IMG/VR virus record: IMGVR_UViG_3300025289_000431
Location: 1-31,207 of that record
Reading direction: 5' to 3' (one strand)
DNA: 31,207 bases
Source: a virus
Of the stretch, positions 6,917 to 11,426 are shown one piece after another; the stretch's first letter is position 1; every line of letters begins with the position of its first letter. Under the pieces are notes generated by a model that saw only the letters and a list, made by a program, of their open reading frames with translations, did no database searches and was not told the DNA's origin. A program made the translations under genes and the position numbers.

Positions 6917-8209
6917 ATGATGGACCTCAGCGCCGTTAACCCTCTGTTGAAGGACGAGTACGAGGATTACATCGTCGAACTCGTTCACACAGAGTCTGTA
7001 GCGCTTGACCTGTTTACCGACGGCGATACGTCTTCGGCGGACGGGCGGCGCGTTATTCTTCCGGCGCATCTGCGCCGTGACCACGCCGGTATCGGGTTCG
7101 TGGGTGAGGGGCGTCAGCTTCCCACCCCGAGCGCCGAGCAGAGCGGGTTCTTCACGATCCCGTTCCGCAAGTCGGCAGCGCGTTTCCAGATCACCAAGGA
7201 AGCCATTGACCAGGCTCAGACCAACCGCGGAAGTTTCGTGCGGACGCTGAGCTTCATCATGGATCACCTTGTCGAGAATCTCGTGGACATCCGCAACAAG
7301 GCCATGTGCCATTATGGCGCAGACGTCCTGGGGTGGGCCACGGGTGACGATACAGCTGGCGTGCTTGGGGTGGACACCCCTGGCGGGGTGGCCATGCCTA
7401 CGGGCGTGAGCAACGGTTCACGCTTCTTCCAAGTTGGCCAGATCATCGCGGCCATCAATACTGGCGCTATCGTGACCAACTCAGTTGGGACCGTAGCAGC
7501 CGTCGCTCCGTCGAGCAACTATAACAACATCACCGTCACGTGGGCGTCTAACCCGACGCTTGCTGACAACGACGTCCTCGTCCGCGCGCATTCGCTAACG
7601 GTGACGGACGTCGCGGATACTTCGTGGTATCAGGCGCCTATGGGTCTTTTGGGGATGATCGACGACGGCACGTATGTGTCGGACTACTTCGGTCTGAACC
7701 GGACGACCTGGGATGCGCTCAAGTCCTACGTGTTCGCAAGCGTGGGCGCGCTGTCAAGTGACATCCTCCAACAGGGAATCGACGTGGCGTATGCTCGCGG
7801 GCGCGGGCATATCCAGTATTTCCTGTGCGAGCAGGCTGTGCGGCGCCAGCTTCTGGCCCTCCGCGAGGGCGACGTCCGCTACGATGGTAGTGGCTCCGTC
7901 AACCCCGATGCTGGGTCGAAGATGGGCAAGTACGGTCAGACGATCACGTGGTCGACCATGCCGATCAAGGTGGACTACAACTTCCCCTATGGGATGCTGA
8001 TGGGCATCGACCCTTCGACGCTTGTCCGGTATTCCGTGGTGCCCGGGAAGTTCGAAGACTGGGGCGGCTCCGTGCTGCTTCCAGCCGCCGCGACGCATAC
8101 GGCCACCGGGCTGTTCTATCTCGTCGATAACTTCTTCCTCGATGCGCCCAACAAGTGCATCCGGTGGGATGGTATCGATGTGACGGTCAACAACATTCAC
8201 GTTGAGTAA
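6917..8209 (+). CDS. Major capsid protein (HK97 fold, predicted)
   Basis: Builds the icosahedral head. At 430 residues it has the length, low cysteine content and hydrophobic/Gly pattern of HK97-fold capsid proteins. The segment GIGFVGEGRQLPTP (about residues 58-71) followed by FRKSAARFQITKEAIDQA resembles the end of the N-arm/E-loop and the start of the spine helix. A Val/Thr/Asn-rich stretch around residues 175-230 could be an inserted beta domain. The C-terminus has a beta-rich end (FYLVDNFFLDAPNKCIRWDG). Starts are ATG at 6917 or 6920; AGGAG at 6901-6905 lies 11 bases before the first. It follows the scaffold and precedes small head genes, as expected. Confidence 0.88.
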   Translation: MMDLSAVNPLLKDEYEDYIVELVHTESVALDLFTDGDTSSADGRRVILPAHLRRDHAGIGFVGEGRQLPTPSAEQSGFFTIPFRKSAARFQITKEAIDQAQTNRGSFVRTLSFIMDHLVENLVDIRNKAMCHYGADVLGWATGDDTAGVLGVDTPGGVAMPTGVSNGSRFFQVGQIIAAINTGAIVTNSVGTVAAVAPSSNYNNITVTWASNPTLADNDVLVRAHSLTVTDVADTSWYQAPMGLLGMIDDGTYVSDYFGLNRTTWDALKSYVFASVGALSSDILQQGIDVAYARGRGHIQYFLCEQAVRRQLLALREGDVRYDGSGSVNPDAGSKMGKYGQTITWSTMPIKVDYNFPYGMLMGIDPSTLVRYSVVPGKFEDWGGSVLLPAAATHTATGLFYLVDNFFLDAPNKCIRWDGIDVTVNNIHVE

Positions 8210-8637: not shown

Positions 8638-9141
8638 ATGGCTATCGGAAACCTTGGGGCTTCTCTCAACCAGCTGCAAGGCTTTATCGCCAGCGGGTTT
8701 GGGGCGCCTAACAACCAGGGCCTGTCCCTGGTGCCTGAGATGGTCGAGCGCATCGCGTCTCGGGCTGATCTGACGGAGGCAAACATCCGCGTGATGCCCC
8801 CGCGTCTCTTCGACGGCACGAACGCCGTGACGTTGGAGACGACTGCGGTCAAGCTGATCGCGGTCATCGCGCAGTCGCTCGCGGCGCAGGTTGAGGATGC
8901 CGCAGTCCTCTTCTATGAGGCGGCGGTGACCGAGGGGACCACCCGCTACGTGGCGATGATTAACGTGGACGCGGCCAACACGGCAGCGACCGCGAGGGCT
9001 ACAGCGGTTGTCTTTCCTGAGCCGATCCCCATGGCCGCGCTGTACTGGTCGGTTGTGGACAACGGCGCTGACGGTGACATCGAGGGGACGACCCTTGGTG
9101 ATGCCAGCGGCGTGCGTGTCCTCGTAGTGTACGCAGAGTAA
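8638..9141 (+). CDS. Small structural protein, unassigned (167 aa)
   Basis: Starts two bases after the previous stop, with AAAGG eight bases upstream. The product is Ala/Val/Thr-rich and low in charge, with an N-terminal amphipathic part (NLGASLNQLQGFIASGFG), a middle rich in Val/Ala, and a beta-rich end (ALYWSVVDNGADGDIEG). It looks like a single compact beta domain, such as a head decoration or head-fibre protein, but this is composition only. It is the last gene before the tRNA. Confidence 0.7.
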   Translation: MAIGNLGASLNQLQGFIASGFGAPNNQGLSLVPEMVERIASRADLTEANIRVMPPRLFDGTNAVTLETTAVKLIAVIAQSLAAQVEDAAVLFYEAAVTEGTTRYVAMINVDAANTAATARATAVVFPEPIPMAALYWSVVDNGADGDIEGTTLGDASGVRVLVVYAE

Positions 9142-9151
9142 TCTGGCTAGA

Positions 9152-9227
9152 GCCCCGTTAGCTTAACAGGCAGAGCGGACGGTTTGTAACCGACCAGGTC
9201 GTGGTTCGACTCCACGGCGGGGCTCCA
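9152..9227 (+). tRNA. tRNA-Thr(TGT), CCA encoded
   Basis: A complete 76-base cloverleaf. The acceptor stem GCCCCGT pairs with GCGGGGC (one G-T pair), then T73 and an encoded CCA at 9225-9227. T8-A9, D stem GCTT/GAGC with an eight-base loop containing the conserved GG, anticodon stem GACGG/CCGAC with one A-A mismatch (28/42), loop TTTGTAA, variable loop CAGGT, T stem CGTGG/CCACG and loop TTCGACT. Anticodon TGT is at 9185-9187 and reads ACA, probably ACG by wobble. It sits on the coding strand within the late operon. Downstream fibre genes are very Thr-rich with many ACG codons, a possible reason to carry it. Confidence 0.93.
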
Positions 9228-9239
9228 TCATAAACAGAA

Positions 9240-9263
9240 GCCCACCCGTAGCATATAGTGGGC
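9240..9263 (+). promoter_or_regulatory. Hairpin just upstream of a TTG-start gene
   Basis: GCCCAC (9240-9245) pairs perfectly with GTGGGC (9258-9263) around a 12-base loop. It lies 12 bases after the tRNA 3' end and one base before the AAGGAG of the next gene. No T run follows, so it is not an intrinsic terminator. It could protect the 5' end of the mRNA left after tRNA processing, or modulate initiation; both are inference. Confidence 0.4.
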
Positions 9264-9276
9264 CAAGGAGACGGAT

Positions 9277-9915
9277 TTGATTAGGGATTTTAACGTCGAT
9301 TGGCTTGAGCACCGGGAGTTCATCCCTGCTCAGGCGTTCCAGACATATGTCACAGGAGCGGGCGTCGCAGCCGGTGACCCGGTCTTCCAGGAGATCAGCA
9401 CGTTTGGTCTCACGGGTGGCCAGGTGAATGCGGCAGGCGACAGCTGGGCAACCATCTGGATGCCATCAGATGTTGATCGCAGTAAGCAGATCCGCTTCCG
9501 CGTGTGGTGGACGCAGACGCAGGGTGTCACAACCGACATCATGACGTGGCTGGTCACCTACACGCAGTTTGCGGAAGACGAGGCGCTGACGGACGTCGCT
9601 GGTGGCACCGGCACGGGGCTCAATACTGTCATTGGCACGGACGCTTCCAGTGACGATGCGCTGGCACTCCAGGCTACGGGCTTTGGGATACTCAACCGTA
9701 ACACGCTCGATACCGATTGCGCGATGGTTGGGCTGGTCGTGGAGGCTGACGCTATTGGCACCTTCTCAGCCGATGAAGTGAGCTTCCTCGGGCTGGAGAT
9801 CCGCTATACGCCGCGCAGGACTGCTGGTCCGCGTAAGAACATCCTTGGCGGGCGGCGGCTCTTGAACGCCTATCCGCTGGGCGTCCAGCTGCACGCAACA
9901 CAGGAAGGTCTGTAA
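9277..9915 (+). CDS. Unassigned structural protein bracketed by tRNA and minihelix
   Basis: 212 residues starting at a TTG, supported by AAGGAG at 9265-9270 with six bases of spacing and by no nearer ATG. The sequence is beta-rich, with aromatic strands (KQIRFRVWWTQTQGV, DIMTWLVTYTQF), a Gly/Ala/Asp-rich loop region, and a strand-like end (EVSFLGLEIRYTPRR) before a basic Gly-rich tail. This is the pattern of a jelly-roll-like virion protein. It is the only gene between the tRNA-Thr and the tRNA-like hairpin. The start codon predicts weak translation unless helped by the local structure. No family recognised. Confidence 0.75.
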   Translation: MIRDFNVDWLEHREFIPAQAFQTYVTGAGVAAGDPVFQEISTFGLTGGQVNAAGDSWATIWMPSDVDRSKQIRFRVWWTQTQGVTTDIMTWLVTYTQFAEDEALTDVAGGTGTGLNTVIGTDASSDDALALQATGFGILNRNTLDTDCAMVGLVVEADAIGTFSADEVSFLGLEIRYTPRRTAGPRKNILGGRRLLNAYPLGVQLHATQEGL

Positions 9916-9924
9916 GAACAACTA

Positions 9925-9961
9925 GCTCCCGGTGGTGGTTCGAGTCCATCACCGGGAGCCA
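9925..9961 (+). ncRNA. tRNA-like minihelix (acceptor stem + T arm only) with CCA
   Basis: A 14-bp stem (9925-9938 with 9946-9959, one G-T pair) closed by the seven-base loop TTCGAGT, which fits the tRNA T-loop consensus. Read as a tRNA, TCCCGGT/ACCGGGA is the acceptor stem (9927-9933/9951-9957), GGTGG/CCATC the T stem, G9958 the discriminator and 9959-9961 an encoded CCA. The D arm, anticodon arm and variable loop are absent. U1-A72 plus G73 is the pattern of bacterial tRNA-Asn and tRNA-Gln. From GGT to CATCA it matches the tRNA-Thr 3' end at 26 of 34 positions, partly through shared tRNA consensus. Two further pairs extend the stem into the first C of CCA. No T run follows. Confidence 0.7.
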
Positions 9962-9968
9962 TCACGTA

Positions 9969-9992
9969 CCACAATCGTGGGGTCTACTCCCC
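9969..9992 (+). promoter_or_regulatory. Competing short hairpins before a ribosome-binding site
   Basis: CCAC/GTGG (9969-9972 with 9977-9980) and GGGG/CCCC (9979-9982 with 9989-9992) overlap by two bases. AGGAG begins one base after the second (9993-9997) and the ATG follows at 10003. The layout of RNA element, short hairpin, ribosome-binding site matches that after the tRNA-Thr. A regulatory role is inference. Confidence 0.3.
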
Positions 9993-10002
9993 AGGAGACA
10001 TC

Positions 10003-10842
10003 ATGCCTCATCTGCCAATCTACAAGACGTTCACAGGCACACCCACAGGAAAACTCCGCAGCACGTATCATCAGACGGATACCAACCTTCTCTACGTTCC
10101 GGGTACGTTCAAAGACCACAACGGCAACGATCGCAAGCTAGAGGGTATTGTGGTACTCTATGCGTCCCTCCACAATCGGAGCGGTGGCGCAGCGAATGTT
10201 GGTATCGGCTGGCGCGTGCCCAATCGGCTCTGGATTGCTGGCCAGTGGGACGATACCGGTGGCGCTACACAGTATAGCGACGACACCACCGCCGCGCAGG
10301 ACACGGTAACCGACGACTTCCCGCTTGAGACGACGACCAATAACGATGGCTACGTCGTGGCAAGCCGCGAGCGATTCAACTGTGTCACGCTCAACGTCTC
10401 CACGGCATCCGCGGATGCGACGAACCCCACGCGGGCGGTGCGGTATAGCGACTCGGCTGGTACAGGTTGGACCAACTTCACGGCGACTGACTTCTACGCA
10501 TCCGATGGTACAGGCGCTGCTGAGTACACAACTGGCGAGCAACTGCTCGTCTTCAACACACCGTGGGATTGGGGTCGCACGTCGAGTCTTGGTGACATCC
10601 CTGATGGGTACTATGCGGTCAACGTCCGTGCCACAACGGCACCGGATACCACTGCGGGAATCGCTGCCTCCATCGAGCTCTGGAACATTCATCTGCTGAC
10701 TGAGGCGCTTGGCGACAACGGGACGCTGGAGTTTGCTGGGAGTGGCGAGCCCCTATGGGAGCGGTTCTCAGACGGACTCTCTGTGTTCTTCTCCACCGCG
10801 AGCGCCATGAACCGCGCGACGGTGCAGGTGAGAATGGCCTAA
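10003..10842 (+). CDS. Beta-rich virion protein, unassigned (279 aa)
   Basis: Starts at an ATG five bases after AGGAG. The product is Thr/Gly/Asp/Tyr-rich and low in Lys, with many alternating strand-like segments (EGIVVLYASLHNRSGG, GYVVASRERFNCVTLNV, GYYAVNVRATTAPDT, AASIELWNIHLLTEAL). This is typical of extracellular, beta-sandwich phage proteins such as head fibres, decorations or adhesins. It ends in TAATG, coupling it to the collagen-like gene. No known family or catalytic motif was seen. Confidence 0.72.
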   Translation: MPHLPIYKTFTGTPTGKLRSTYHQTDTNLLYVPGTFKDHNGNDRKLEGIVVLYASLHNRSGGAANVGIGWRVPNRLWIAGQWDDTGGATQYSDDTTAAQDTVTDDFPLETTTNNDGYVVASRERFNCVTLNVSTASADATNPTRAVRYSDSAGTGWTNFTATDFYASDGTGAAEYTTGEQLLVFNTPWDWGRTSSLGDIPDGYYAVNVRATTAPDTTAGIAASIELWNIHLLTEALGDNGTLEFAGSGEPLWERFSDGLSVFFSTASAMNRATVQVRMA

Positions 10843-11426
10843 TGCCTATCTATAGTGGAAACGAAGAGAAGCGTATCGTAGAGACCGGCCCGCCTGGCCC
10901 GGACGGCAAGCAGGGTTCACAGGGCGTTCCTGGCCCGCGTGGCCCACAGGGCGAGCCTGGCGTGCAGGGGCCTAAAGGGGACGTTGGTGCGCCCGGCCCT
11001 CGGGGCGCTGTAGGCCCTGTCGGCGCGCGCGGTGAACGTGGTGAGGTTGGGCCACGTAGTGAATCGGGGCCGATTGGTAAGACAGGCCCGGACGGGCCGC
11101 GTGGCCTTGCTGGTAGCCAAGGCCCAAAGGGTGACAAAGGCGTGCCTGGGCCTGCTGGCCCCTCTGGTCCCGTTGGCCCCCGCGGGACTATCGGTCCTGA
11201 GGGTCCACAGGGTCCGGAGGGTAAGCTGGGCTCCCCGGGACCGAAAGGCGCCAAGGGAGATACTGGCAGTGCCCCGATTGGCGCGATTCTCCTATGGCCA
11301 TCTGCGGCTCCGCTCCCTGACGGTTGGGACGTCTACCCGCTGCGTAAGGGCGAAGACTGGTGGCGGCGTGTGTGGGAGCAGGCTGTGGGCGGTGACGTGC
11401 CGCGGTTGATTTGTAAGGTGCGGTAA
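10842..11426 (+). CDS. Collagen-like fibre protein
   Basis: The frame is open from 10755, but the ATG at 10842 overlaps the previous stop (TAATG) and starts exactly before the repeat, so it is chosen. After 15 residues come 42 consecutive Gly-X-Y triplets (residues 16-141), rich in Pro at X and Lys/Arg/Glu at Y, as in trimeric bacterial and phage collagens. One triplet is broken: SES at 73-75, from GGT to AGT. The C-terminal domain (GAILLWPSAAPLPDGWDVYPL) resembles the start of a phage tail-collar domain and could trimerise the fibre. Predicted to be a trimeric fibre on head or tail. The stop overlaps the next ATG. Confidence 0.88.
   Translation: MPIYSGNEEKRIVETGPPGPDGKQGSQGVPGPRGPQGEPGVQGPKGDVGAPGPRGAVGPVGARGERGEVGPRSESGPIGKTGPDGPRGLAGSQGPKGDKGVPGPAGPSGPVGPRGTIGPEGPQGPEGKLGSPGPKGAKGDTGSAPIGAILLWPSAAPLPDGWDVYPLRKGEDWWRRVWEQAVGGDVPRLICKVR

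Follow-up and report, generated by a model that had tools for sequence, protein, structure and literature searches.

A tRNA-Asn-like hairpin in a viral structural gene cluster: a possible tRNA relic serving as an intergenic RNA element

Closest described systems

Phages readily acquire and shed tRNA genes, and tRNA remnants occur in phage tRNA arrays. A 12-bp helix made of acceptor and T stems and ending in GCCA is cleaved in vitro by bacterial RNase P (PMC11221534). No description of a phage acceptor/T-arm minihelix was found in the open-access literature.

The element considered here is a 14-bp hairpin in a window of 31,207 nt, the whole stretch of viral DNA that was analysed, and it resembles several known systems in part. 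With tRNA-Asn genes it shares U1-A72, G73, CCA, the T loop TTCGAGT and a stacked 7 + 5 helix, but it lacks the D arm, anticodon arm and variable loop, and two extra pairs occupy G73 and C74. With the RNase P model minihelices MD1 and pATSer (PMC11221534) it shares the 12-bp acceptor/T helix, the 3′ GCCA and a 5′ leader; those molecules, however, are designed in vitro substrates with a free RCCA, whereas the hairpin is known here from sequence and its RCCA is partly paired. Like the remnants in phage tRNA arrays it would be a phage-borne tRNA gene that has been cut down in length, yet it consists of acceptor and T arm only, is perfectly paired and lies between structural genes. Finally, it recalls phage late-operon hairpins: its relatives carry hairpins of similar stem length at the same operon position, and a closely similar stem directly follows the capsid gene of Gordonia phage Lilbeanie. 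Unlike these, the window's hairpin has the T loop and CCA of a tRNA-Asn. The 3′ domain of a tRNA has apparently been recycled as a simple hairpin at a site where a hairpin is repeatedly maintained. This raises the idea that RNA punctuation is part of what tRNA genes do when they stand between the structural genes of a phage.

The hairpin and its likeness to tRNA-Asn

Counting from the capsid gene, the element directly follows the stop codon of the third gene downstream (Table 1). Positions 9925-9961 read GCTCCCGGTGGTGG-TTCGAGT-CCATCACCGGGAGC-CA. Within them, 9925-9959 form a hairpin of 14 pairs, one of them G-T, around a 7-nt loop and followed by CA, and 9927-9961 can be read as a 7-bp acceptor stem, a 5-bp T stem, a T loop, G73 and CCA. 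This is the longest perfect hairpin of the 31-kb window and also its strongest local fold, being the 45-nt stretch of lowest energy. The segment 9900-9990 folds at −37.3 kcal/mol, against −25.6 ± 3.2 for shuffled sequences (z = −3.7), and 0 of 200 shuffles fold as well. In the predicted structure G73 and C74 are base-paired, which would hide the CCA. Sequence and fold therefore bear out the sequence-only reading on the TTCGAGT-loop hairpin with acceptor stem, T arm, G73 and CCA in tRNA order, as well as its caveat that two extra pairs reach into the CCA end; these pairs take G73 and C74.

Table 1. Features of the hairpin and its surroundings in the window
Feature	Position	Strand	Remarks
Major capsid protein gene	6917..8209	+	used for finding relatives
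Complete tRNA-Thr (anticodon TGT), encoded CCA, in the preceding intergenic gap	9152..9227	+	ARAGORN, Rfam
Upstream gene, 212 aa, structural cluster	9277..9915	+	anchor for locating the site in relatives
Intergenic region holding the hairpin, 87 nt	9916..10002	+	between the 212-aa and 279-aa genes
5′ arm of the 14-bp hairpin	9925..9938	+	sequence, fold
Extra stem bases	9925-9926	+	partners are C74 and G73
Acceptor-like 5′ strand TCCCGGT	9927-9933	+	pairs with 9951-9957
T-stem-like 5′ strand GGTGG	9934-9938	+	pairs with 9946-9950
TTCGAGT loop, T-loop consensus	9939..9945	+	identical in Azospirillum tRNA-Asn
3′ arm: CCATC (T stem), ACCGGGA (acceptor), GCCA (G73 + CCA)	9946..9961	+	in-register tRNA-Asn matches
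G73; CCA	9958; 9959-9961	+	
Downstream gene, 279 aa	10003..10842	+	

Neither ARAGORN nor the Rfam tRNA model calls the hairpin a tRNA, cloverleaf, D arm and anticodon arm being absent, and at permissive thresholds Rfam returns only sub-threshold noise on it. What the hairpin does have, in register, is an acceptor stem, a T arm with T loop, a discriminator and CCA. When 51 nt were compared with plasmids by blastn, the best matches were to Azospirillum (29/31 identical, E 5e-4). In the record read, the aligned stretch forms the 3′ end of a tRNA-Asn(GTT); it is in register with the hairpin and identical to it in the acceptor stem (TCCCGGT/ACCGGGA), the T loop, G73 and the CCA. Several of the phage matches annotated as tRNA are likewise tRNA-Asn, which fits the U1-A72 and G73 of the hairpin.

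IMG/VR was searched with the pattern TCCN7GGTTCGANTCCN7GGAGCCA, which combines 20 tRNA-like positions with minihelix spacing. It occurs in 47 contigs: three of the window's own lineage, 43 with complete tRNA genes (41 Asn, 1 Glu and 1 Gln) and one with a tRNA-Asn cut by the contig end. The tRNA genes so matched form 7-10 of the 12 minihelix pairs; the hairpin forms 12 of 12. This 20-base pattern brought up no second collapsed tRNA in IMG/VR.

Chance could give much the same picture, if a loop similar to a T loop had happened to arise in a plain GC-rich hairpin between genes, and the element may come from a screen of many windows. A panel of 16 E. coli tRNAs, chosen independently of the element, bears on this reading. 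From T stem to CCA (28 nt) the hairpin scores 20, best against tRNA-Asn, and only 2 of 4000 random GC-rich hairpins reach that score at any offset. Over all 35 nt, 58 of 4000 random hairpins (1.5%) do as well, a weaker result because the 5′ strand contributes little tRNA signal. The 29/35 match to tRNA-Asn is biased, its panel having been picked with an element-derived pattern, and only the E. coli panel serves as a test. Also on the side of chance, the outer stem GCTCCCGGTG...CACCGGGAGC has arisen independently, enclosing other loops, in about seven unrelated contigs of viruses; one such case is Gordonia phage Lilbeanie, with the stem in the gap that follows its capsid gene. A tRNA origin is therefore indicated by the T arm and CCA, not by the stem on its own. 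T arm and CCA match tRNA-Asn in register, the identity to a real Azospirillum tRNA-Asn is 29 of 31 nt, and IMG/VR holds no non-tRNA match to the pattern outside the window's own lineage. Judged from these comparisons, the resemblance is not plausibly due to chance, a reading we consider very unlikely, and the earlier suggestion of an Asn-type likeness stands up to the Azospirillum match, the IMG/VR pattern and the E. coli panel alike.

Lilbeanie itself (L056:2999-3035) carries an unannotated palindrome, long and almost perfect, between the major head gene and the next gene; read in gene direction it is GGGCTCCCGGTGATGC-ACTCA-GCGTCACCGGGAGCCC.

The hairpin site and the preceding gap in relatives

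Near-identical contigs (about 99%) keep the hairpin unchanged, but they show 0 differences anywhere in 8923-10100, so that this constancy is uninformative on selection. Six more distant relatives, with capsid proteins 74-81% identical, retain the gene before the site. Five of the six (L006, L009, L010, L011 and L012) have, like the window, a strong hairpin a short way past that gene's stop codon. In L006 it has 11 perfect bp, CCCTCAGAGAG-TGAAC-CTCTCTGAGGG; in L009 and L010 it has 12 perfect bp, GCCCGGCTGGGG-ACAAC-CCCCGGCCGGGC and GCCCTGCTGGGG-ACAAC-CCCCGGCAGGGC, respectively; in L011 and L012 it is shorter or imperfect. The sixth, L008, has no hairpin at the site, where only a few bases separate the stop from an ATG. 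The five hairpins are the second-best local folds of the stretches compared, the window's being the best of its own. Between L009 and L010 the stem differs by two changes only, which make up one compensatory pair, G-C to T-A.

The stem sequences of the relatives are unrelated to that of the window's hairpin, and both T loop and CCA are lacking there in all six. It had been proposed that the element is a tRNA mimic, perhaps kept for its fold, and that related phages be compared for a conserved TTCRA loop and CCA at the locus. Neither is present in L006 or L008-L012, and the hairpins of L006, L009, L010, L011 and L012 give no support to a conserved tRNA mimic or minihelix. Retention of the neighbouring gene with loss of the T-loop sequence is among the outcomes that the proposal itself had named as refuting it. 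As these hairpins carry no tRNA features, the site appears to select a hairpin and not a tRNA shape.

A full tRNA-Asn was not found in any relative, so an ancestor has not been seen. The tRNA-Asn-bearing contigs L067-L110 have no genes related to those of the window and are thus not ancestors at the hairpin site. A DNA search with the locus gave no match among named phages, a capsid search of genome contigs gave no prophage, and no donor tRNA came up when bacterial and archaeal genomes were searched for an exact 25-nt match. The last result also bears on the reading of the element as the attP of a temperate phage, formed from the 3′ end of a host tRNA-Asn. The T arms and 3′ ends of tRNAs are common cores of integrase attachment sites, which speaks for this reading, but no tyrosine or serine integrase domain was found in the window, a 50.8-kb relative or five further contigs (all of which may be fragments), the element sits inside a structural operon, and the bacterial and archaeal genomes searched, from which the host genome may be absent, hold no exact 25-nt match. 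An attachment site was accordingly rejected: neither an integrase gene nor identity to a host tRNA 3′ end was found in these possibly incomplete contigs, and we regard it as extremely improbable.

The preceding intergenic gap offers a second comparison. Its tRNA-Thr, taken as the 3′ end plus trailer, matches the hairpin at 29 of 37 nt without gaps, CCATCA included. An orthologous tRNA-Thr stands in the same gap of L006 (81% capsid identity). Strong hairpins adjoin the same gene in the preceding gap of L008, L032, L042 and L043, and L011 and L012 have little structure there. In L009 (8263-9096) and L010 (8149-8990), an extra collagen-like (Gly-X-Y) gene occupies the place of the window's tRNA-Thr. 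When aligned with the tRNA-Thr gap of L008 and L009, the hairpin matched no better than shuffles did. These few independent cases are suggestive of tRNA genes and hairpins alternating as intergenic structures.

GC-rich hairpins, e.g. GGGGAGGGGGCTAACCACCCCCTCCCC, were also seen beside the collagen-like gene of L009 and L010. Separately, in the 50.8-kb relative contig a tRNA-Met(CAU) is encoded on the other strand, at a distance from the structural genes (L025:6187-6264).

Origin and possible roles

The account that we hold to be reasonably probable is that a tRNA relic has been reused as an ordinary intergenic RNA hairpin, not as a miniature tRNA, and that it stabilises or punctuates the mRNA of the capsid cluster. 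The source would be the 3′ domain of a tRNA-Asn-type gene, comprising the T arm, the 3′ acceptor strand, G73 and CCA, left after loss of the 5′ part or after an internal deletion in the gene. The 5′ side would then have become fully complementary, giving a single uninterrupted 14-bp hairpin. The 3′ strand is tRNA-Asn-like, and the 5′ strand is its complement for two bases beyond the acceptor stem. This extension to G73 and C74 favours a 3′ tRNA fragment that was made into a hairpin. An internal deletion may also have been the route: removal of positions 8-48 from a tRNA-Asn would also yield TCCCGGT-GGTGG, and TCCCGGT is the 5′ start of the Azospirillum tRNA-Asn.

We infer that the hairpin is transcribed as part of a polycistronic late message. 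There, as a GC-rich RNA helix of 14 bp behind a stop codon, it should block 3′ exonucleases and may slow the polymerase and hence read-through. In this way it would stabilise or attenuate, separating the message of the capsid cluster from the tail-region genes that follow. Neither the window nor its relatives have a U-tract after these hairpins, and a terminator scan of the window was negative at the site. The hairpins are thus not canonical intrinsic terminators, and a Rho-independent terminator was rejected for want of a T run after the stem.

The same hairpin could instead be a neutral fossil, the remnant of a decayed tRNA-Asn gene with no present function. This fits the ready gain and loss of phage tRNA genes, and with the element confined to one lineage and identical among its contigs, purifying selection cannot be shown. 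However, the perfect 14-bp pairing extends beyond the acceptor stem, and strong hairpins are regular at the same site in relatives; both suggest that a hairpin is useful there, and we think a fossil quite unlikely.

Alternatively, the acceptor/T-arm hairpin could be kept on purpose as a processing signal, for RNase P (and RNase Z or CCA), by which the late transcript is divided at gene boundaries. Minihelices of this size with GCCA are bacterial RNase P substrates in vitro (PMC11221534), and the tRNA-Thr in the previous gap of the window and L006 would, if co-transcribed, already cut the transcript through its own processing. Should RNase P cut the hairpin, it would be a natural counterpart of the laboratory minihelix substrates. 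Such cleavage is possible, but G73 and C74 are predicted to pair with positions −1 and −2, leaving no free 3′ RCCA beside the acceptor stem for RNase P to bind; such pairing would be avoided in a tRNA mimic or a substrate of RNase P. The T loop and CCA are absent at the site in every more distant relative, and the pattern used retrieved no further element of this kind from IMG/VR. The paired RCCA and the absence in relatives count against cleavage, making a purpose-kept signal unlikely. A broader proposal is that, in this phage group, a tRNA gene, a tRNA-derived minihelix or a plain hairpin can stand in for one another as punctuation of the structural operon, and that the minihelix is a working intermediate on which host RNase P still acts, which would make it a natural, phage-encoded minimal substrate of that enzyme; this seems to us distinctly doubtful.

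Each flanking gene has a smaller hairpin immediately before its ribosome-binding site, at 9240-9262 (GCCCAC...GTGGGC) and 9978-9993 (GGGG-TCTACT-CCCC). Further downstream, differences among the near-identical contigs cluster at about 11084-11321 in a tail-fibre/collagen-like gene (10843-11426), hinting at recombination or diversification in that gene.
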